From positions 1 through 40,507 of the IMG/VR virus record IMGVR_UViG_3300044972_001324: 40,507 bases of DNA; one strand, written 5' to 3'. The position numbers and the translations under genes are program-made. The notes under the pieces were generated by a model, which was not told where the DNA came from, searched no databases, and saw only the letters and a program-made list of their open reading frames with translations. Source of the DNA: a virus. Position 1 is the first letter of the stretch; the number at the start of each line of letters is the position of its first letter. Shown here in pieces: positions 604 to 19,335 of this stretch.

Positions 604-970
604 TTGAATAAAGTATGATTTTATTCATCATCTTTTTAGACTTTGAAAAGATGGTCCAACGATTTACATCAGCAAAGATTATTTTAATAATCTCCATTAC
701 TAATGTTTGCTTTGTAGCGTTAATACTTCCTTTAGGGGTTTTGCCATCTCCAGCGTAAAAGTGAATGTACTTTTCACAGTTTTCCATAAAATTTTCGTAA
801 CCGTTCTTTTTAACGATTAAACGTAGTTTTTTAGCAAGTGTAGATGATTCGTTAACTGACAGTACGCATTTGTGACTGTAAAGTAATTCATCAGTGCTTA
901 ATCTTTGAATGAATCTTGATAATTCAAGAGTGTCGTTGATCCTTTTCAGACCTTTACTAACATTGATCAT
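590..970 (-). CDS. hypothetical early protein, 126 aa
   Basis: A lysine-rich, soluble-looking protein without a signal peptide or membrane segment. I do not recognise a family. It overlaps the HNH gene by 14 bases and follows a small zinc-ribbon gene, so it belongs to the early minus-strand run. A GDGKTPKGS stretch near residues 74-82 could resemble a phosphate-binding loop but lacks the full GxxxxGK[ST] spacing. ATG at 970 is the first good start, preceded by an A/T-rich leader. Confidence 0.6.
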   Translation of the reverse strand: MINVSKGLKRINDTLELSRFIQRLSTDELLYSHKCVLSVNESSTLAKKLRLIVKKNGYENFMENCEKYIHFYAGDGKTPKGSINATKQTLVMEIIKIIFADVNRWTIFSKSKKMMNKIILYSNDKS

Positions 971-988
971 ATTTATTGGTTTTTGGGT

Positions 989-1129
989 TTACAAGTCACT
1001 AACGATTTCCTTGCCACAATCATTACACTTAAATATGTAACGTTGGTCTTGGTAATCCATATTTATAAGAGTTGTGTTTTTGTGTCTACAAAACAACTGG
1101 TTTATAAACTTTAAAAATCTCTCTCGCAT
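989..1129 (-). CDS. mini zinc-ribbon protein, 46 aa
   Basis: A 46-codon frame from ATG 1129 to TAA at 989. It carries a CRH motif near residues 14-16 and CNDCGK near 35-40, a C-H/C-C zinc-ribbon layout seen in very small phage proteins. An internal ATG would give only 23 residues with the CxxC half, so the longer form that keeps both halves is preferred. It is 4 bases downstream of the preceding gene and fits the tight packing of this run. A nucleic-acid-binding role is inferred from the ribbon only. Confidence 0.6.
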   Translation of the reverse strand: MRERFLKFINQLFCRHKNTTLINMDYQDQRYIFKCNDCGKEIVSDL

Positions 1130-2107: not shown

Positions 2108-2602
2108 TTAAATTTTTTTAAATCCTGTTAATCCTGTTAATTGTTCTACTTTGTATTCTACGCTATCGGGTACTTCGTAACCGTGTGATTCGATAAAGTG
2201 AATACAGTCTGTTAAATATTTTCTAAATCTATCCTTAGTCATTCTTGATTTTGGTTCGAGGAAAGGAACTTGCTCACCTGTTTTGGAGTTTATAAGGAAG
2301 TCTTTAGCGCATTGAGTTTTAAGTATTTCATCGGCTTTATACTTATCAACACTTTCCCAGCCTAAGTCTGTAAAAAGGGTCATAGCAACTGAACAAACTA
2401 CTTTGTGGTAATATGCGTACATCTGTTCTTTTTCGGCTTTTAAAACTGTTGGCTCGATTACTATGCTTAGTTCTGTTCCTTGCATTAAAGTAAGGTACTT
2501 TAAGAAGGTTTCGTTACCGTAAAGGTCTATTAGTATATCCCGCAGGTTTATAGCTTGGCGTGGGGTAAACTTAGTTGTGTAAGAGATTATTTTACTGCTC
2601 AT
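2108..2602 (-). CDS. hypothetical protein, possible NinB-like recombination factor, 164 aa
   Basis: The ATG at 2602 is preferred; the longer frame begins with TTG at 2614. It overlaps the end of the upstream gene. The protein is soluble. Its C-terminal third (KSRMTKDRFRKYLTDCIHF, then a GYEVPDS element) resembles the tail of some phage recombination-associated proteins such as the NinB group, where a SKSxMxKxxFxxY motif precedes a helix and a hydrophobic-Pro element. The resemblance is weak. Position between the DnaA-like gene and methyltransferase genes suits DNA metabolism. Confidence 0.5.
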   Translation of the reverse strand: MSSKIISYTTKFTPRQAINLRDILIDLYGNETFLKYLTLMQGTELSIVIEPTVLKAEKEQMYAYYHKVVCSVAMTLFTDLGWESVDKYKADEILKTQCAKDFLINSKTGEQVPFLEPKSRMTKDRFRKYLTDCIHFIESHGYEVPDSVEYKVEQLTGLTGFKKI

Positions 2603-3268: not shown

Positions 3269-4009
3269 CTACGAAACTGCATCTAAACGAGCATTTGTTA
3301 TTTCAATAGCCTTTGGATTAATGTCGCAACCTATAAAATTTCTGTTTAGTTCTTTACAAACTACTGCTGTTGTTCCACTCCCTAAATAATAATCAGCAAC
3401 AGTATCTCCTTCGTTTGAACTTGCTTTTATAATTCGTTCAATTAATGCCTTTGGTTTTTGGGTTTGATACATTTGTATTTCATCATCATTTTGAAAAAAT
3501 CCACTTTTATCTTGCAGTCCTTTTATATTCCACCAATCCTGCAAACTACTTCCGTATTGGTTTAGTTGCTTGTTAAATGTGTATTGATTTGATTTTGTAT
3601 AAAAGTGAATATCATCGTGCGTTCTACGAAAGTATTTTTTACCGTGTCCACCACCTGCTCCGTAACACCAAACAATAGTATTCTTAAAATTATCATACAA
3701 AAAAACATCATCCATTAAACACCTTAACCAATGTGATATTCTCCAATCCATTTGTAAATAAATACTTCCATTTGATTTCAGTACTCGGTGCATTTCTTTT
3801 ATTCTCGGTAAATAAAAATCTTCAATCACCTTTTTATCTGCCTTCAAGTCCTGATAGTCGCCAAAGTTTCTGCCAGTTCCATAAAGTATATCGCAGTAAA
3901 TCAAATCTATACTTTCATCAAGTTGCGACAAAAGGAGTTCAAGGTTATCAACCGCCCTGCACATAACACGGGTTTGGCAAAATGGCTGTTCAGTAATTCT
4001 ATCAATCAT
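3269..4009 (-). CDS. beta-class amino DNA methyltransferase with divergent motif IV
   Basis: A 246-residue SAM-dependent methyltransferase of the circularly permuted beta class (N6-adenine or N4-cytosine). Catalytic motif IV lies near residues 38-46 as YCDILYGTG, where most relatives have DPPY. The SAM-binding motif I is at about 202-214 (DTVADYYLGSGTT, usually DPFxGSGTT), followed by FIGCDINPKAIEI, which contacts the SAM ribose. The TRD is short. The QTQKP pair before the C-terminal lobe is a family hallmark. It would methylate phage DNA against host restriction or act in regulation. The DILY substitution might change activity or substrate. Confidence 0.8.
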   Translation of the reverse strand: MIDRITEQPFCQTRVMCRAVDNLELLLSQLDESIDLIYCDILYGTGRNFGDYQDLKADKKVIEDFYLPRIKEMHRVLKSNGSIYLQMDWRISHWLRCLMDDVFLYDNFKNTIVWCYGAGGGHGKKYFRRTHDDIHFYTKSNQYTFNKQLNQYGSSLQDWWNIKGLQDKSGFFQNDDEIQMYQTQKPKALIERIIKASSNEGDTVADYYLGSGTTAVVCKELNRNFIGCDINPKAIEITNARLDAVS

Positions 4010-6244: not shown

Positions 6245-6865
6245 TTATATAACCGTTAATAGTGTTTCTTTTGGATAACTTCCTTTCTTCCATACAAAGT
6301 GAGCATACTCGATTGAATCTGCTGTCAAAGGTTTTAATCCTTCCGCTTTTCTTTTAGCATTTTGCTTATCTGTAATGAATGATATTCTTTTGTGATGAAC
6401 ATAACATCTAATTGGCATTTGTTTTTCAAACAAAGCTTTTCTTGATGCACTTCCAAAGAAATTTAATCTCAATAACATTATCACATATCCGCCTTCGGGA
6501 GCTATCTCTAATGATTTTTTGATAATATCTTCTGCAATATCGAATGGAGGGTTTGTAATGATTATTTTGTGGTCAAGAAAATTTTGTTTATCTGCTTCCA
6601 AAAAGTCCATTATAATGTCTGCTTTTGAATCTTCACGAATATCTAACGAACAAACATCTGCATTAAATTCCGACTGAATAACTGCGGGGTAAGACATTTC
6701 ATCTTCTTCACTACCTCCAGCACAAGGGTCCAACCAATTAATTTTATCAGGTCTATCAATATTTTCATCTACTAAAAATACCGACAAGAACTCTCTAATA
6801 CATTTTTGTGGTGTTACGTAGTAATCTGCTTTATGTCTATCGTAACCTCTGTTTGTTGAACTCAT
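6245..6865 (-). CDS. NPPF-type DNA N6-adenine methyltransferase-like protein
   Basis: A 206-residue gamma-order Rossmann methyltransferase. YYVTP lies at 15-19, SAM motif I LDPCAGG at 45-51, an acidic CSLDIRED motif near 72-79, and catalytic motif IV TNPPF at 104-108. The N-terminal YYVTP and motif IV are characteristic of phage and eukaryotic-virus type adenine methyltransferases. Expected action is methylation of adenine N6 in phage DNA. It is the second methyltransferase of the left arm. Its leader contains ACAATACAAT 24 bases upstream of the ATG, directly after the tRNA-like gene. Confidence 0.75.
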   Translation of the reverse strand: MSSTNRGYDRHKADYYVTPQKCIREFLSVFLVDENIDRPDKINWLDPCAGGSEEDEMSYPAVIQSEFNADVCSLDIREDSKADIIMDFLEADKQNFLDHKIIITNPPFDIAEDIIKKSLEIAPEGGYVIMLLRLNFFGSASRKALFEKQMPIRCYVHHKRISFITDKQNAKRKAEGLKPLTADSIEYAHFVWKKGSYPKETLLTVI

Positions 6866-6896
6866 AGTGTTTAATATTAATTGTTTTTATTGTATT

Positions 6897-6980
6897 GTAT
6901 CAGTACCGGGAATCGAACCCAGTTTTTCAGCTAACATCATGACAAATCGCTGCGTTTTAACCTGTATAAACTACCTGATA
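6897..6980 (-). tRNA. tRNA-like gene with a 15-base anticodon loop centred on CAU
   Basis: Reading the minus strand: acceptor TATCAG pairs with CTGATA (6 bp), U8-A9 follow, D arm GTTT/AAAC has GG in its loop, and T arm CTGGG-TTCGATT-CCCGG is followed by the acceptor strand. The variable loop is AAAAA. The anticodon stem is CAGC/GCTG with a G-A at its end. Instead of 7 bases the anticodon loop has 15 (plus coordinates 6933-6947): six bases, CAU, six bases. Its last nine bases CAUGAUGUU are the exact antisense of AACAUCAUG found at ten gene starts. The acceptor has one irregular position and no encoded CCA. It could be a decayed tRNA, a tRNA-shaped regulator, or an unusual initiator-like tRNA. 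Confidence 0.6.
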
Positions 6981-7002
6981 TATGTTTGGGAGTTACCCCA
7001 AA

Positions 7003-7368
7003 CTATTCTTTTTTCTTTTTTAACTTACCTTTTAACTTTTGGCTCCAGCTTAATTTCGCTTCGGCTTGTTCTTTTAGTTCCCTTTTAACTGAATCGTGTG
7101 CTGCATCCAATACGTGACCTTTTGCGAGGGTTTTTTCAATCTTTAATCTCTCAACCTTACTTAGTAGGTTTTTCGCTCCCTTAGTGCGTGTAACTTCCTT
7201 TTTGTATTGTTTTACCTTTTCATCGTATTGTTCTTGGGTAAGCTCAATATGTCCTGGTAGTCGTACATATTTATTGTAGTAGTAAAGTGGATCATTAGCG
7301 CATCTTTCTATTTCTTCTATATCTGTGACATTTGGGCCGGGAATATCCCTAAATTTATCTTGTTCCAT
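7003..7368 (-). CDS. hypothetical charged protein, 121 aa
   Basis: Acidic N-terminus with a YYYNKYVRLPG segment, then a long lysine/glutamate-rich region likely to be helical or coiled coil, ending in KKKKE. No recognised enzyme motif. Similar charged small proteins follow DNA metabolism genes in other phages, but no function can be given. The start overlaps the stop of the 58-residue gene upstream by 14 bases. Confidence 0.5.
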   Translation of the reverse strand: MEQDKFRDIPGPNVTDIEEIERCANDPLYYYNKYVRLPGHIELTQEQYDEKVKQYKKEVTRTKGAKNLLSKVERLKIEKTLAKGHVLDAAHDSVKRELKEQAEAKLSWSQKLKGKLKKKKE

Positions 7369-7756: not shown

Positions 7757-8041
7757 TTAATTAAGTTCGTTTATATTGCCTTGAATATCCTTTCTTAATC
7801 CAATTGGATAGTTATACCAGCTAACGTATTGACTCGCCATGTCGTGTAAGCATTGCAGGTCGTTTGAATATCTTATAAAGTATATTGATTCACTACCATC
7901 TTTGTGGCACCCTTTTACGATCATTGCGTACTTTTTCTTTGAGCTGTATTTGTTTGCATCCTTACCAGGAGATAACACTGTTTCTCTTTCAAGTTCTGGA
8001 TATGATTCTTTTATTATTGCGTAGTTGTATGGAGTTTTCAT
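7757..8041 (-). CDS. hypothetical protein, 94 aa
   Basis: Starts MKTPYNYAII, contains lysine-rich and aromatic segments and CHKDGSESIYFIRYS near the middle. Soluble, unknown. Its ATG overlaps the preceding stop by 4 bases (8038-8041), implying coupled translation with the gene upstream, the first member of the AACATCATG set. Confidence 0.5.
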   Translation of the reverse strand: MKTPYNYAIIKESYPELERETVLSPGKDANKYSSKKKYAMIVKGCHKDGSESIYFIRYSNDLQCLHDMASQYVSWYNYPIGLRKDIQGNINELN

Positions 8042-8256
8042 AGTATAATGTTTTTAACGTTTCCAGAAGGCATTGTAGTTATTCTCATTCGGTATGCGCC
8101 ATCTTTTTTACATACCTTATATTGATCTTTTAATTCTTTTAAAGTAGGTTTGCAGTCAAATGTAGTGCTTCTTTGAAGCAACCATGTATTGTCTTTAGTA
8201 AATAGAGTTACTGTAACGTCTAATTTACCTTGTGATGTTGTAGTGAAAAATGCCAT
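8038..8256 (-). CDS. hypothetical protein, 72 aa, AACATCATG start
   Basis: A beta-rich small protein (LDVTVTLFTKD, TWLLQRS) of unknown family. Its start context is AACATC-ATG followed by GCA, giving 12 consecutive pairs (one G-U) with the expanded loop of the tRNA-like RNA. It is the most downstream of ten genes with this start. Confidence 0.55.
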   Translation of the reverse strand: MAFFTTTSQGKLDVTVTLFTKDNTWLLQRSTTFDCKPTLKELKDQYKVCKKDGAYRMRITTMPSGNVKNIIL

Positions 8257-8271
8257 GATGTTTTGTTTTTT

Positions 8272-8445
8272 TTATTTATTACTATTTTGTTTTTCGTACA
8301 AAGAAATTAATTTCTTTAAGATGAAAAAATTGATTATAAGCGTGGGGAATACATAGATTCCGTATTCAAGTCCTGTAAATATTCCTTGTGTTATTGTTAA
8401 GATGATAAGCATCCCAAATAATAAGCTTGTTGTTGATATGTACAT
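8272..8445 (-). CDS. small two-helix membrane protein, 57 aa
   Basis: A 57-codon frame from ATG 8445 to TAA at 8272. Residues about 7-25 (SLLFGMLIILTITQGIFT) and 29-45 (GIYVFPTLIINFFILKK) are hydrophobic enough for two membrane helices, with a short charged tail. ACAATACAAT ends 9 bases upstream of its ATG. It could be a holin or envelope modifier, but no lysis cluster surrounds it and membrane location is the only safe inference. Confidence 0.6.
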   Translation of the reverse strand: MYISTTSLLFGMLIILTITQGIFTGLEYGIYVFPTLIINFFILKKLISLYEKQNSNK

Positions 8446-8465
8446 AAGTTTTCTATTGTATTGTA

Positions 8466-8921
8466 TTAAATATTTCCCTCGTCTGCAAATGAATAATAAC
8501 TTTCCTCTGTAATTATAAGGTGGTCCATTAGTGTAACATCAAATAATAACGCTGCTTGTTTAATTTTCTGTGTAATTTCCTTATCAGCGTTACTGGGCGT
8601 TGTATTTCCAGAAGGGTGGTTATGGCAAAGTATTATTGAACTTGCATTTAGATCAATAGCTGGTTTAATAACGTGCTTTACTTCGACTACTGTACCTGTT
8701 ATACCTCCTTCAGATATTTTCATTACTGCAAGTACTTGATTGAATCTATTTAGATACATTGTATAAAAAACTTCTTTGAGTTCCATATTTTTTTCGTATG
8801 CTTCAATACTTTTAAAAATGATTGAGCAACTTTTTGAATCGTGTATTTTCTTTCTTTCTGAAGCCTTAACTTTTGTTTTGTAAGTTAATTCGATTTCGGC
8901 TACTTTGTTTAAATTTTCCAT
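8466..8921 (-). CDS. radC: RadC-like JAB/MPN domain protein
   Basis: A 151-residue protein covering the RadC catalytic domain without the N-terminal helix-hairpin-helix. The JAMM zinc motif is intact: E50 in the first strand, then H100-N-H102-PSG and D113 in HNHPSGNTTPSNAD. JAMM proteins are zinc metallopeptidases; RadC's real substrate is not settled despite its DNA repair name. Such short RadC proteins are common on phages and mobile elements. The leader has ACAATACAAT at 8941-8950 and the start context AACATC-ATG. Confidence 0.85.
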   Translation of the reverse strand: MENLNKVAEIELTYKTKVKASERKKIHDSKSCSIIFKSIEAYEKNMELKEVFYTMYLNRFNQVLAVMKISEGGITGTVVEVKHVIKPAIDLNASSIILCHNHPSGNTTPSNADKEITQKIKQAALLFDVTLMDHLIITEESYYSFADEGNI

Positions 8922-8951
8922 GATGTTTTTTTATTATTTTATTGTATTGTT

Positions 8952-9176
8952 TTAAAATTTGTTTTGAGCTTTAAACATGTAGCCCCTTAAAAATTGATTC
9001 ATTTCCCGCGTTAACATATATTCGGTTTTAACTATGTGGTTTTTCATTAGAGCAACCTTTTCGCCTTGAATTTTCGGGGCAAATGATAGTTGAAAATCTT
9101 TAAGTTCTGGACAAAGTTCCTTTGCTGCGGTTAACATATTGTTTACTGCTTCGATTGGTAGGCGTTTGTGTGGCAT
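8952..9176 (-). CDS. hypothetical protein, 74 aa
   Basis: Starts MPHKRLPIEAVNNML; helical, neutral to basic, with a conserved-looking FLRGYMFKAQ ending. Its leader is CTACA-ATG, a shortened relative of the TACAATACAATG start. No function recognised. The gene lies between two AACATCATG genes. Confidence 0.5.
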   Translation of the reverse strand: MPHKRLPIEAVNNMLTAAKELCPELKDFQLSFAPKIQGEKVALMKNHIVKTEYMLTREMNQFLRGYMFKAQNKF

Positions 9177-9188
9177 TGTAGATAGTTT

Positions 9189-9752
9189 TTAAATTTCTTC
9201 TCCTTCTGTGTCTATTGTTGTTGCTGCACCAAAGATGAAGCAAATTTCATCAACTATACAATCTCCTACTTCTGGGCTTTTGTACTTCATTAAAACTTGT
9301 CTTAATCTTTCGTGGTTTTCACGGGCTTCTTGTACATCTAAAGTGTTTTTGTTTACAAAACCTACTTCGATTGCTATTGTGCATCCTTTTTCAAGTGCTT
9401 CGTATAAACTTTTAGTTGTTTCGATTAAACTTTCCGTTTCTTCTTTTTCGTAAATTGCATACAATGGGAATAAGCCACTGCTATAGATTTCTTCTGCATT
9501 ATTGGTAACATCTTTCCAGGTGAAGCCATCTTTAAATTGTATTGTTTTGTTATCATTATAACTATAGTATTCTATAATGTTTCTTAACCTATGATTCAAT
9601 TCATTTGCTTCTTCTGAAGCTATTTGTACCCAATCATTACGATCTTCCAATTCATCCCCTGAATGTTCGAAAATTGCCTGTACCTTTTCTTTTCTGCTTT
9701 CAGAATTAATAGCTTTGTTTAAGTCTGAAATAATTTCTTTGTTATTTGCCAT
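9189..9752 (-). CDS. hypothetical acidic protein, 187 aa; best predicted target of the tRNA-like loop
   Basis: ATG 9752 (MANNKE) is chosen. The upstream 44-residue extension would read through ACAATACAAT (9771-9780) and the AACATC leader. The protein is acidic and probably helical, with EEANELNHRLRNII and many Glu residues, and has no known domain. Around its start the mRNA reads UAACAUCAUGGCAAAU. This can pair over 16 continuous bases, with one G-U, to AUUUGUCAUGAUGUUA in the loop of the tRNA-like gene at 6.9 kb. That is the longest match among the ten genes. Confidence 0.6.
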   Translation of the reverse strand: MANNKEIISDLNKAINSESRKEKVQAIFEHSGDELEDRNDWVQIASEEANELNHRLRNIIEYYSYNDNKTIQFKDGFTWKDVTNNAEEIYSSGLFPLYAIYEKEETESLIETTKSLYEALEKGCTIAIEVGFVNKNTLDVQEARENHERLRQVLMKYKSPEVGDCIVDEICFIFGAATTIDTEGEEI

Positions 9753-9780
9753 GATGTTATGTTTTTTTTTATTGTATTGT

Positions 9781-10023
9781 TTATATTTCTTCAAAAAGTA
9801 CATTTGCCTGGACCTCTTGAATAAGGTAGTTTTCTTCTTCTCGATCCATTGTTGTGAAGTTCTTTGACAAATTATCTTTGTCATCTTCGTTTAACGGTTC
9901 TTTGTCCGTTAATTTAGTGTATTCCAATGCTCCATTAATAGCATTGTTAACGGTTGTGTAAATTCCTATGGGTTCGGTTGAACTTGTTTTGTCAACGGTG
10001 TTGAGTATGTATAAAAATTTCAT
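9781..10023 (-). CDS. hypothetical acidic protein, 80 aa
   Basis: Begins MKFLYILNTVDK, a beta strand, then an acidic helical tail. The start is TACAATACA-ATG, the repeat fused to the start codon as in the gene at 7747. Unknown family. It ends 28 bases before the next start, in which the ACAATACAAT element of that gene lies. Confidence 0.5.
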   Translation of the reverse strand: MKFLYILNTVDKTSSTEPIGIYTTVNNAINGALEYTKLTDKEPLNEDDKDNLSKNFTTMDREEENYLIQEVQANVLFEEI

Positions 10024-10032
10024 TGTATTGTA

Positions 10033-10092
10033 TTATTTAAGTGAATTGATAAAATTGATTAGGTCCTTTATTTGTTGGTTTTCTTTTCGCAT
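10033..10092 (-). CDS. 19-residue mini-ORF with AACATCATG start
   Basis: A tiny frame, MRKENQQIKDLINFINSLK, begins at ATG 10092 preceded by AAACATC. It is the shortest member of the ten-gene start family and sits 10 bases before the fused start of the gene at 10023. The shared start context argues that it is translated. It may be a regulatory leader peptide for its neighbour or an independent micro-peptide. Not verifiable from sequence alone. Confidence 0.45.
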   Translation of the reverse strand: MRKENQQIKDLINFINSLK

Positions 10093-10103
10093 GATGTTTA
10101 ATT

Positions 10104-10349
10104 TTAATCTTCTAAAGTCGTTCCGTTAAAATCTAAATAGTCGACTTTTGGATACTTTTTTTCAATGTATTTTAATAGTTGATTTTTACTTCTAAATTTT
10201 TTCATTATTTCTCTATCGCTCCAGGCGTTTTGAAAACAATATTCTTTTATTATTGCAATATAATTTCCTTTAAATATTTTGCCTTTTGTTGGTAATAATA
10301 ATACATTATCCGTTAATGTATTTTCTTGTAATATAAATTCTAATGCCAT
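10104..10349 (-). CDS. hypothetical protein, 81 aa, AACATCATG start
   Basis: Beta-rich N-terminus (MALEFILQE) followed by a helical segment with WSDREIMKKFRSKNQLLKY and an acidic end. It resembles small phage proteins of unknown role. The start reads AAAAACATC-ATG-GCA. A GC-rich hairpin (10371-10394) lies 22 bases upstream. Confidence 0.55.
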   Translation of the reverse strand: MALEFILQENTLTDNVLLLPTKGKIFKGNYIAIIKEYCFQNAWSDREIMKKFRSKNQLLKYIEKKYPKVDYLDFNGTTLED

Positions 10350-10370
10350 GATGTTTTTGTTTTTTTATGT

Positions 10371-10394
10371 CCCCGCTCCGATAATGAAGCGGGG
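10371..10394. promoter_or_regulatory. CCCCGCT/AGCGGGG intergenic hairpin
   Basis: A 7-bp perfect stem with a 10-base loop in an otherwise AT-rich gap, just upstream of the 10349 start. No U-run follows on the minus strand (it reads ACATAAAAAAAC), so it is not a typical terminator. It could be an RNA processing or stability element. Two similar hairpins lie at 12271 and 12954. Confidence 0.5.
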
Positions 10395-10406
10395 GTAAAT
10401 TATTAT

Positions 10407-10565
10407 TTAATTAATGCACACTATTGAACTAATTTGTGCCGGTTTTCTTTTACCTTTTTCAATATCCAATAACTCGAATGCGTTTATTAGTTGTATTGAA
10501 GCAAATAGACGCATTTGCGAAGCGTTTAAGCGTTTAAATTTGAGTTGTTGGTATTCTGTATTCAT
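10407..10565 (-). CDS. hypothetical basic protein, 52 aa
   Basis: A 52-codon frame from ATG 10565 to TAA at 10407. Its start overlaps the stop of the 379-residue gene as TAATG, a common coupling arrangement. The product is basic and helical (FKRLNASQMRLFASIQLINAF). A plus-strand open frame over the same bases has no such context and is taken as the shadow. Confidence 0.6.
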   Translation of the reverse strand: MNTEYQQLKFKRLNASQMRLFASIQLINAFELLDIEKGKRKPAQISSIVCIN

Positions 10566-11704
10566 TAGATTAGTTTTAATTCGTTTAACCTTGTTTCTGT
10601 GCTTTCTACATTAAAAACGTGGCACCCTATTTTAACAAAAGTTTTGCTTTGTTCTATTAATACCTTGTTTATTGTATAGGGACCTATTTTTTGCCCTATT
10701 ACATTCACTTTGTTTTTGATAGCGTTAATAAATTTAATAGCATCTTTAATTAATACTTTTGCGCCAAAATTAGTTACAATTTTATCGTTTTCAACTTCTT
10801 TAATGAAATTAAGCGCGTTTGTGTTACCATTCAAAAAGTTTCTAATTTGAATATCAATATTAAATTCTTGATCTATAAAATTATCTATTTCGTATTCTAA
10901 CTGATGCAATAAATTTTCTTTAAAACCTTTTAATTCATCTTCAATATGTTTTAACATCCAGTTAACTGCTTCAATTTTTTCATCAAAACATTTTATTGCG
11001 TCTTCAATCCTTTTAATAAGTTCCTTTTTTGTTTCGTTTCGATATATATTATCGTTTAATATTTCATTAAATTCCTTGTTGTTATCTTCGTTGTATGCGC
11101 TTTGTAAATAATAGTACATGTTCGCTTCATCTTCGCAAAAATTTTCTACTTCGCTACATTCTGCAAATGATAACCATCCTCCAGACCTTCCAAACTGCCA
11201 AACATTTTTTTCATCAAATTGTGAAAGGATACAATATTCTTGAAAGTCTTTTTCATTTTTTGAAATAAAGTATTTTTGAAATTCTTTTAATGTTTTGTCT
11301 TCGTGTCCTTCAATGTAGTTGTAATAGTATTTTAATTCGATACTGCAAAAGTTTTCTTTTATTGTGTTAAAAGCTCTCCAAAGTTTGTTAAAATTAGTTG
11401 TTGCGCATAAGTCTACAAAATCTTTAAAATAACTTACTTGATTTTCGCATGTATGATAGTAAATTGAATTTAGCCTATCTTCATTAAATTCTATTAATAA
11501 ACTTTCTTTTTCTTCTTCGGTTAAGTTTAATGTTTTTATATGTTCTTCAACGTCTGAAGCGCTTAACCATTCGTAAACTTTAATATTGCCTACTATGTAC
11601 CCCTCTCGAGTATCAAAGTCGTTACGCGCTTCAAAACTATTTATTTCATTTGCTCTCTCTAATAAGCTGAAAATTTGTTCGTTTATTTTACTAATTTTTT
11701 TCAT
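10565..11704 (-). CDS. hypothetical protein, 379 aa, largest gene of the small-gene run
   Basis: A Glu/Asn/Lys-rich, largely helical protein. Two recognisable patches are VWQFGRSGGWLSF near residues 168-180, with a Gly-rich turn, and a C-terminal 80-residue module that ends KIGCHVFNVEST. This pair of patches is recalled from other phage proteins of unknown function (DUF-type). Start AACATC-ATG with ACAATACAAT 22 bases upstream (11726-11735), the only gene with both elements besides RadC and the 9752 gene. Function unknown. Confidence 0.6.
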   Translation of the reverse strand: MKKISKINEQIFSLLERANEINSFEARNDFDTREGYIVGNIKVYEWLSASDVEEHIKTLNLTEEEKESLLIEFNEDRLNSIYYHTCENQVSYFKDFVDLCATTNFNKLWRAFNTIKENFCSIELKYYYNYIEGHEDKTLKEFQKYFISKNEKDFQEYCILSQFDEKNVWQFGRSGGWLSFAECSEVENFCEDEANMYYYLQSAYNEDNNKEFNEILNDNIYRNETKKELIKRIEDAIKCFDEKIEAVNWMLKHIEDELKGFKENLLHQLEYEIDNFIDQEFNIDIQIRNFLNGNTNALNFIKEVENDKIVTNFGAKVLIKDAIKFINAIKNKVNVIGQKIGPYTINKVLIEQSKTFVKIGCHVFNVESTETRLNELKLI

Positions 11705-11737
11705 GATGTTTTTTTTTAATTTGTTATTGTATTGTTT

Positions 11738-12232
11738 TTATAAATATTCTGGAAAGTCCATTCCATGTTTATGTGCAAAACTATCTTTGTTTTGTGTTTC
11801 TATTGTAATTGATATTTTATAATTCAACATTGCATCTAATTGCTGAAGATCAAAAATTTTATAATGTTCTTCTTGCGTTGGTTCTGCGTTAAATTCTGCG
11901 AAGCCTTTTAAGTAGAATTTTATCGCTTCTTGAATTAGTTTTGTTTGTCCTGTTGGTATTGTAATAGTTTCTTTAGGGTATAAATATTTATCATAATATT
12001 TATTCATTGACTTGTTTATTAACTTCTTTTCGCTTAAATTTAAGTGTGCATTTTTAATGCAAATTTTATTAAAGATAGTAGTTAATTTTTCGCACGGTTC
12101 TAAAAAACTTTCAAAATCTGGATGATCAATACCATGATGAAAATTTAATCCTATTATCTTTCCATTTTCGTATGTTAAAAATACGTATCTATCGTACAAC
12201 TCTTGTACTAATATTTTTTTAATTGTTTTCAT
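11738..12232 (-). CDS. hypothetical protein, 164 aa
   Basis: A lysine-rich soluble protein starting MKTIKKILVQELYDRYVFL, with a YDKYLYPKETITIPTG segment in the centre. No domain recognised. Start context GAACATC-ATG. A GC-rich hairpin (12271-12294) lies upstream. Confidence 0.55.
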   Translation of the reverse strand: MKTIKKILVQELYDRYVFLTYENGKIIGLNFHHGIDHPDFESFLEPCEKLTTIFNKICIKNAHLNLSEKKLINKSMNKYYDKYLYPKETITIPTGQTKLIQEAIKFYLKGFAEFNAEPTQEEHYKIFDLQQLDAMLNYKISITIETQNKDSFAHKHGMDFPEYL

Positions 12233-12270
12233 GATGTTCTTTTTTTTAATTTGTTATTTTTTTTAAATTA

Positions 12271-12294
12271 CCCCGCGCCAATGTGAACGCGGGG
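12271..12294. promoter_or_regulatory. CCCCGCG/CGCGGGG intergenic hairpin
   Basis: A 7-bp perfect stem with a 10-base loop between the genes ending at 12304 and starting at 12232. It is similar in stem and loop length to the hairpin at 10371. No U-run follows in the direction of transcription, so a processing or stability role is more likely than termination. Confidence 0.5.
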
Positions 12295-12303
12295 TTAAAA
12301 TTG

Positions 12304-12645
12304 TTATTTACTTGTTTCTTTACATTTATTAATAAACTCAATTAGTAGTTTATCAACTCTTTTTATTTGCACTTTGTATCCTAAATTATAGTTATTTACT
12401 ATTTTTTGTGCCTTCGCTTCATACTTCTTTATAAGCTCCCAATTTACATTTTTACCTATTGGACTATAGCCAGTACTTAAACAAGTATTATCTATTTCGT
12501 AATAGTCACAATTCCAACCGTTGATCCCGCTTGAATATGCAAAGGGTTTTTTATAGTATGTTAGATATTGAATATCACAATATCCAATTGAAAAAATATT
12601 TACAAAGTTTTGTTTTATTTGGCTTTTTGTTACTTTAGCTTTCAT
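12304..12645 (-). CDS. hypothetical basic protein, 113 aa
   Basis: A lysine- and tyrosine-rich protein (SIGYCDIQYLTYYKK), soluble, not recognised. Start context CAACATC-ATG. It follows its upstream neighbour by about 50 bases containing one GCGGGG motif. Confidence 0.55.
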   Translation of the reverse strand: MKAKVTKSQIKQNFVNIFSIGYCDIQYLTYYKKPFAYSSGINGWNCDYYEIDNTCLSTGYSPIGKNVNWELIKKYEAKAQKIVNNYNLGYKVQIKRVDKLLIEFINKCKETSK

Positions 12646-12696
12646 GATGTTGTATTTTATTAATTATTAATTTTTGTAATGTGTTCGCGGGGTGAA

Positions 12697-12930
12697 TTAT
12701 TTATTTACTTTTTTATAATCTGAAATACCAGTATGCAAACGTAGGAATTCGTTTAAATACTTTGCAGTAGTTTTGCTTTGTGGTTGCCCTTCAACAATCT
12801 TAATTATTGGCTCGTTGCCTTGTTCGTAGTTTTCAATAGTACATACTATAGTAGAATAAGATTGAAATACTATTTTGCCATCTGCAAAAAAGTACATTTG
12901 ATTTGGTGCTAATTGTTTAACTGTGTTCAT
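12697..12930 (-). CDS. hypothetical protein, 77 aa
   Basis: A small protein starting MNTVKQLAPNQMYFF, with beta strands and a helical C-terminus (KYLNEFLRLHTG). Start context UAACAUC-AUG-A, giving 11 consecutive pairs with the tRNA-like loop. Unknown function. Confidence 0.5.
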   Translation of the reverse strand: MNTVKQLAPNQMYFFADGKIVFQSYSTIVCTIENYEQGNEPIIKIVEGQPQSKTTAKYLNEFLRLHTGISDYKKVNK

Positions 12931-12953
12931 GATGTTATATGTTTTTAATTTTA

Positions 12954-12976
12954 CCCGCCTTAAATATAGGCGCGGG
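12954..12976. promoter_or_regulatory. CCCGC/GCGGG intergenic hairpin
   Basis: A 5-bp GC stem with a 13-base loop in the gap between genes 12997 and 12930. It is the third and weakest of the GC-rich hairpins between members of the AACATCATG run. Confidence 0.4.
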
Positions 12977-12996
12977 ACAAACCTAATTATTACTAT

Positions 12997-13194
12997 TTAA
13001 TTAATTACTACATTCATATTGATTTTATAATTATGAAATTCAAAATACCAGTTTTCATCATTGTAAAGATTTTTAGCTATCTTTATTTTTTCTTCAGTAT
13101 TTTCTATATTACCCAATACAATACTAAACACTTTATTTTCTAACGCTTTTACGGAGTGAATAGAAAAGTACTTCATTTCGTTATTTGATTTCAT
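12997..13194 (-). CDS. hypothetical protein, 65 aa, first gene of the small-gene run
   Basis: Starts MKSNNEMKYFSIHSV. An IEN..EKIKIAKNLYNDENWYF segment follows, a pattern typical of tiny phage proteins, function unknown. It is the promoter-proximal member of the 13.2-8.2 kb run; the long inverted repeat at 13237-13291 lies 43 bases upstream. Start context UAACAUC-AUG-A. A weak AAACTTTG element at 13223-13230 could be its -7 box, but no matching -33 box is seen. Confidence 0.5.
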   Translation of the reverse strand: MKSNNEMKYFSIHSVKALENKVFSIVLGNIENTEEKIKIAKNLYNDENWYFEFHNYKINMNVVIN

Positions 13195-13236
13195 GATGTT
13201 ATATATTTATATTATTAATTTACAAAGTTTAAAAAT

Positions 13237-19237: not shown

Positions 19238-19335
19238 TGGTTGGGGCAGGAATCGAACCTACTCACGTGACTTAAGTTATGATGAATTGCACGATTTTCA
19301 TCTTTTTAGCATCTACCCAATTATGCTACCCAACC
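19238..19335 (-). tRNA. tRNA-like gene with an enlarged anticodon/variable region, 98 bases
   Basis: The minus strand shows a perfect 7-bp acceptor (GGTTGGG/CCCAACC), U8-A9, D arm GCAT-AATTGGGTAG-ATGC and T arm GTAGG-TTCGATT-CCTGC. Between the D and T arms are 46 bases, where a class I tRNA has about 23 and a class II about 35. The only strong hairpin there is GATGAA-AATCGTGCAA-TTCATC (6 bp, 10-base loop), offset by six bases from the D stem and followed by palindromes CTTAAG and CACGTG. An anticodon cannot be assigned. CCA is not encoded. Confidence 0.6.

Follow-up and report, generated by a model that had tools for sequence, protein, structure and literature searches.

The phage genome described here contains a real and unusual RNA of a recurring phage design, and its sequence makes an antisense function plausible. 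The RNA, called t1, has the body of a tRNA and an enlarged anticodon loop, nine bases of which are complementary to a start common to ten genes of the same phage. The window is the whole stretch of DNA analysed, the 40,507 nucleotides of IMG/VR record IMGVR_UViG_3300044972_001324. Within it, t1 occupies about 82 nt of the minus strand, flanked by the stop of gene 7003-7368 and by the start of gene 6245-6865. Its parts are:

6898..6979 (-), or to 6980, should the first U be paired with the terminal A: tRNA-like RNA t1, body plus enlarged anticodon loop (RF00005, ARAGORN)
6954..6971 (-): D arm GUUU-AUACAGGUUA-AAAC, with the D stem GUUU/AAAC (inspection, RF00005 alignment)
6928..6952 (-): anticodon arm, CAGC (6952-6949) facing GCUG (6931-6928), a G.A mismatch and the loop (inspection, RF00005 alignment, folding)
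6933..6947 (-): 15-nt anticodon loop AUUUGUCAUGAUGUU, CAU central; 6933-6941 is the exact antisense of AACAUCAUG
6906..6922 (-): T arm CUGGG-UUCGAUU-CCCGG (inspection, RF00005 alignment)
6888..6898 (-): leader motif ACAATACAATA, overlapping the 3' end of t1 (motif count)

A sequence-only reading had drawn attention to this RNA. The 15-base loop with CAU at its centre, which it placed here, is confirmed at 6947-6933. It also considered the D arm, T arm, variable loop and acceptor to be good. This holds for the D arm, the T arm and the elbow bases, which are intact (U8, A9, A14 and the GG of the D loop are retained), but not for the acceptor: AUCAG-G faces UACUGAU, the 5' side is one base short, and the 7-bp stem of a tRNA acceptor is therefore missing. 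The scoring of the scaffold, suggested at the same time, gave a match to Rfam family RF00005 over the full length (6979-6898; 24.6 bits, E 0.0024), yet the score is below the gathering score of 29, i.e., the cut-off for a tRNA is not reached. With 4 bp, a G.A mismatch and 15 nt, the anticodon arm departs from the 5-bp stem and 7-nt loop of a tRNA, and ARAGORN calls t1 a tRNA-Asp(gtc) only by way of a very poor stem. A73 is followed by CAA; CCA is not encoded. An Rfam scan of t1 yielded no match to a C4 family.

The predicted folding of t1 is not impressive. Its cloverleaf amounts to -16.3 kcal/mol as against -18.4 for the predicted minimum fold; it folds no better than shuffled sequence (z -1.0), and in the predicted fold of free t1 the loop is only about half unpaired. 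The loop contains the palindrome UCAUGA, through which loop-loop dimers of t1 are possible. By inspection, a strong hairpin, GUUUGGG-GUAAC-UCCCAAAC, precedes t1. The Bacteroidota promoter TANNTTTG is too frequent to place a promoter of t1. The leader motif at the 3' end, ACAATACAATA, is the second recurrent one in this genome: it lies ahead of many leftward genes at several places between 5975 and 11735 (-), with 19 copies (at most one mismatch) where 2.4 are expected.

The first recurrent motif is the start itself. AACATCATG occurs 11 times in the 40.5 kb, the expectation for the shuffled window being 0.42. Ten of these copies are minus-strand starts at 8254-13200 and the eleventh is the antisense of the t1 loop, which bears out the earlier claim that the last nine loop bases are antisense to ten starts. 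The ten copies of AACATCATG, and what each of them starts, are:

8254..8262 (-): gene 8038-8256
8919..8927 (-): gene 8466-8921 (RadC-like)
9750..9758 (-): gene 9189-9752; all 15 nt of the t1 loop can pair here, with one G-U
10090..10098 (-): a 19-codon ORF that begins at 10092 and lies just ahead of gene 9781-10023
10347..10355 (-): gene 10104-10349
11702..11710 (-): gene 10565-11704
12230..12238 (-): gene 11738-12232
12643..12651 (-): gene 12304-12645
12928..12936 (-): gene 12697-12930
13192..13200 (-): gene 12997-13194

All ten are placed at an ATG, even though the copy at 10092 opens a mere 19-codon ORF. The conserved block spans exactly -6 to +3, and the sequences further upstream differ. 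As ten starts share what should be found 0.42 times, something must keep the block conserved. The leaders are rich in A (upstream content 0.66), and the starts are predicted to be more open than the other starts of the window (0.79 unpaired versus 0.56). Between the motif genes, at approximately 10390, 12280 and 12970 (-), GC-rich hairpins without T runs are seen (e.g., CCCGCGCCTATATTTAAGGCGGG), which are perhaps processing or stability elements.

The t1 loop covers all nine nucleotides of the conserved block in the same orientation, and the window holds no other antisense copy. In being complementary to translation starts of its own genome, t1 resembles antisense RNAs of the C4 and CI kind. 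Among the 1222 CAT-centred 15-mers of the window, equal pairing to the ten starts is reached only by the starts' own antisense and the t1 loop. Duplexes of the loop with the ten starts average -14.0 kcal/mol, those of random 15-mers -3.0. The best target is gene 9752 (-18.8 kcal/mol), where, as had been noticed before, 15 loop bases and one flanking base can pair with one G-U; an unrelated start, however, reaches 14 if G-U is allowed, so that the length of pairing alone should not be over-read. From the shuffled frequency, the probability that a given 15-nt loop holds the 9-mer is about 4e-5, and about 2e-4 for both inserts of the window together, which is of the order of 1e-4 before any look-elsewhere correction. 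Allowing for other patterns that might have caught the eye, the effective chance is by our own estimate perhaps 0.2-1%.

The other insert belongs to a second RNA of this kind, t2:

19238..19335 (-): second tRNA-like RNA t2 (RF00005 34.1 bits, scanner, MFE fold)

A tRNA search of the window record brought it to light; neither ARAGORN nor the Rfam scan of the whole window had reported it. Its score exceeds the RF00005 gathering score. t2 has an intact acceptor (7 bp), D arm and T arm, and its body appears in the predicted minimum fold. D and T arms are 46 nt apart, and the place of a normal anticodon arm is taken by the hairpin GAUGAA-AAUCGUGCAA-UUCAUC (19302-19281; 6 bp, 10-nt loop) plus extra bases. 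The best match of the t2 insert to a gene start is 10 nt, which about 5% of random segments also achieve; an antisense role at the start of gene 5906 was considered and dropped as a weak match. The sequence directly 3' of t2, 19237-19085 (-), looks structured and non-coding (joint fold z -2.1). By eye, pseudoknots are possible between AUCAGUC and GACUGA and between AUGCU and AGCAU; no Rfam family matches it.

Two relatives of the phage, G011 (IMGVR_UViG_3300035187_002824; 68.7 kb) and G012 (31.8 kb), were found by a terminase search. The three genomes have the terminase-to-tail module in common, with the order kept and 23-65% identity. tRNA bodies were sought with a scanner that demands U8, a T arm, a D arm containing GG and pairing in the acceptor; on 655 kb of shuffled sequence it produced no match, and it did not detect t1 because of the damaged acceptor. 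G011 contains two normal tRNA-Met and four abnormal tRNA bodies:

56157-56358 and 60587-60917 of G011 (+): abnormal tRNA bodies in two tandem pairs, each between genes

The spacing from D to T arm is 34, 57, 93 and 128 nt in these four, the normal one being 22-24. One of them, G011-b, and t2 fold better than shuffled sequence (z -2.1 and -2.2, respectively). After each pair comes an ATG with AAAGCTT ahead of it (AAAGCTTATGTCA). G012, which is a fragment, has no abnormal tRNA bodies. In all six bodies (t1, t2 and the four of G011) the parts that tRNA-maturation enzymes read are kept, and the part that the ribosome reads is changed. A tRNA body with a replaced anticodon arm is therefore a recurrent design, found in the window phage and in its relative G011. 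Two functions fit the six bodies: they could be processing signals whose arm is free, or they could stably carry a useful insert. The inserts of G011 match starts of their own genome over 7, 6, 8 and 9 nt, no better than random (means 8-11). As neither these nor the t2 insert are antisense to starts, antisense pairing is not a property of the class; only t1 itself suggests antisense action.

The search was extended to other viral contigs. When CATGATGTT was sought as a pattern close to a T arm, 21 loci came up, the majority being coding sequence, tmRNAs or normal tRNA-Arg. The exceptions were two abnormal bodies, L027 (IMGVR_UViG_3300042902_000102, 2232-2312 (+); 50.3 bits, 17-nt anticodon loop), which lies inside an apparently long structured non-coding region, and L024 (9151-9255 (+)), with 56 nt between D and T arms, and further L022 (1816-1945 (-)), where 81 nt separate the arms, the anticodon arm with UAU looks normal and a long insert sits in the variable region. 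The search itself selected for the motif, and these loci are thus no evidence for antisense. In a 130-kb viral contig (L042), a skipping-rope RNA at 967-1070 (-) (RF02924, 48.9 bits) and a normal tRNA-Met are about 430 nt apart. Exact t1 patterns had no match in viral contigs, and no relative carrying t1 was found in the collections searched. The gene upstream of t1 yielded no relatives; the methylase adjoining t1 has homologues, none with a tRNA at that place. Cultured phages gave no DNA match, no match to the portal, the capsid or the 1475-aa protein, and distant terminase matches (24-28%). A host in the Bacteroidota was proposed by the sequence-only reading; the evidence found here is indirect and consists of weak matches to a crAss-like tail ring and an SU10-like capsid.

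How can these observations be combined? We tentatively prefer to see t1 as a natural tRNA-scaffold RNA that is probably matured by tRNA enzymes and that may act through its loop as a repressor of the ten shared starts; the chances of this being correct we put somewhat below even. The antisense RNA on a tRNA scaffold, which had been suggested before, is supported by the full-length model match, the unique and co-oriented nine-base complementarity and the sister bodies here and in G011, all directly observed, and by the predicted openness of the target starts. It is weakened by the absence of t1, and with it of any covariation between loop and starts, from the relatives found, by the random-like inserts of G011, the t2 match that about 5% of random segments equal, a cloverleaf that is not the minimum fold, the damaged acceptor and the occurrence of the start motif alone in an unrelated phage (see below). 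For expression, transcription unit, processing, pairing in the cell and repression we infer the following course. Leftward transcription would make the ten mRNAs first and t1 last. Maturation enzymes would read the acceptor, T arm and elbow of t1 and cut it out of the polycistronic transcript of the leftward block. The exposed 15-nt loop could then form nine base pairs (15 in the case of gene 9752) with AACAUCAUG, the start common to the ten upstream, presumably early genes, compete with the 30S subunit and thereby lower their translation. Since its place in the block is downstream of all ten targets, t1 would accumulate later and act as a delayed off-switch. A wider proposal, that a lineage of uncultured, podovirus-like phages uses tRNA bodies as scaffolds for small RNAs of differing function, with t1 as the master antisense repressor of ten early genes, goes further and has to be held with still more reserve.

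A rival that deserves almost as much credit takes t1, t2 and the G011 RNAs as mere punctuation: RNase P and RNase Z would cut a long phage mRNA at these places, the free anticodon arm would drift or take up sequence, and the match of t1 would be a coincidence. The acceptor, D and T arms kept in all six bodies are precisely what these enzymes read, and it is the anticodon arm that varies; t1 is intergenic, as are the G011 pairs; the G011 inserts lack complementarity to starts, and RNase P is known to cut non-tRNA and mRNA substrates (PMC11143913). The price is a full nine-base block arising in such a loop by chance, at about 1e-4. Moreover, inserts of 93 and 128 nt exceed what drift needs, and t2 and G011-b fold better than shuffled sequence. 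The coincidence would also have to be accepted if the shared start were the operator of a RegA-like protein, or an initiation context favoured by phage and host, with t1 unrelated to it. Such a motif following A-rich, open leaders (0.66 A, 0.79 unpaired) indeed resembles the T4 RegA sites (PMC3014915). Also, one gene of an unrelated 172-kb phage (L020, IMGVR_UViG_3300001533_002283, 3753-3787 (-)) has nearly the same leader, AACAATACAATA..ACATAACATCATGGCAAA, in a genome whose sole tRNA is an ordinary tRNA-Leu and which has no t1-like RNA. Among the scanned proteins, most of which have no family match, no RegA-like protein was recognised, and the antisense loop is left to chance; we consider this explanation rather improbable.

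Is t1 just a decaying phage tRNA that has lost one acceptor base and whose anticodon loop has grown by about eight? Its sub-threshold score, the acceptor deletion and a cloverleaf that is not the minimum-energy fold would agree with this. The intact T loop, D arm and elbow bases do not, and six abnormal bodies in two related genomes speak against isolated decay, which makes this unlikely, more so than the operator. Very little is to be said for the initiator-like tRNA that the sequence-only reading had offered as its other option, with a nine-base extended anticodon selecting phage starts. The central CAU is preceded by U, as this idea would like, but 15-17 nt of loop and a stem of 4 bp do not make a decoding anticodon arm. 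The acceptor is damaged, no CCA is encoded, and a normal anticodon arm is missing from the sister RNAs. Equally far-fetched is the view that AACATCATG on the plus strand (6933-6941) is an eleventh gene start and the tRNA-like match a by-product. A 49-aa rightward ORF (6939-7088) does follow in frame, yet its codon score of 0.079 ranks 7th among 30 antisense ORFs and is thus ordinary, its upstream A content is 0.25 versus 0.66 at the ten starts, this region of leftward genes yielded no other rightward gene, and the tRNA body would have no explanation.

The preferred reading of t1, an antisense RNA on a tRNA scaffold, has its nearest relatives in known phage regulators. Like the proposed t1, the C4 RNA of phages P1 and P7 is a small, phage-encoded antisense RNA that blocks phage gene expression; the CI RNA of P4 we take to be a system of the same kind. 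C4 RNA is not known to possess a complete tRNA body, D and T arms included, and it controls one operon, whereas t1 would address ten starts via its anticodon loop. The phage-derived C4 RNA is matured by RNase P (PMC11143913) and represses Ant synthesis in trans (PMC8546580). T4 RegA acts on about 30 mRNAs at sites that overlap the AUG and are A+U-rich and unstructured, with a 5' poly(A) tract (PMC3014915). In view of C4 RNA (PMC11143913) and RegA (PMC3014915), the earlier opinion that no equivalent had been described was too strong.

As to the body, an ordinary phage tRNA shares it, and the Rfam family, with t1; lacking the 5-bp stem and 7-nt loop, t1 has no decodable anticodon. tmRNA likewise combines a tRNA domain with a large insert in place of the anticodon arm, but t1, t2 and the four G011 RNAs obtained neither a match to the tmRNA model nor an ARAGORN tmRNA call. 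The closest architecture is man-made: the engineered tRNA scaffold, which works in E. coli, keeps the acceptor, T and D arms and exchanges the anticodon arm for foreign RNA (PMC3753655). The same arms are kept and replaced in t1, t2 and the G011 RNAs; the former was built for RNA production, the latter reside in phage genomes. Our literature search found nothing on natural phage tRNA scaffolds or antisense anticodon loops; it was limited, and absence is no proof. The repetition of the design in phage genomes suggests that phages may exploit tRNA maturation to make non-translating RNAs, which annotation of the ARAGORN type misses, as it did with t2 and all four in G011. Finally, RegA serves many early mRNAs as one regulator, at sites that overlap the AUG and lie in unstructured, A-rich leaders, and the proposed t1 would do the same, though as an RNA and not as a protein. 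If the loop works as its sequence suggests, t1 would be the RNA counterpart of T4 RegA, a single trans-acting regulator with a common start-codon operator.
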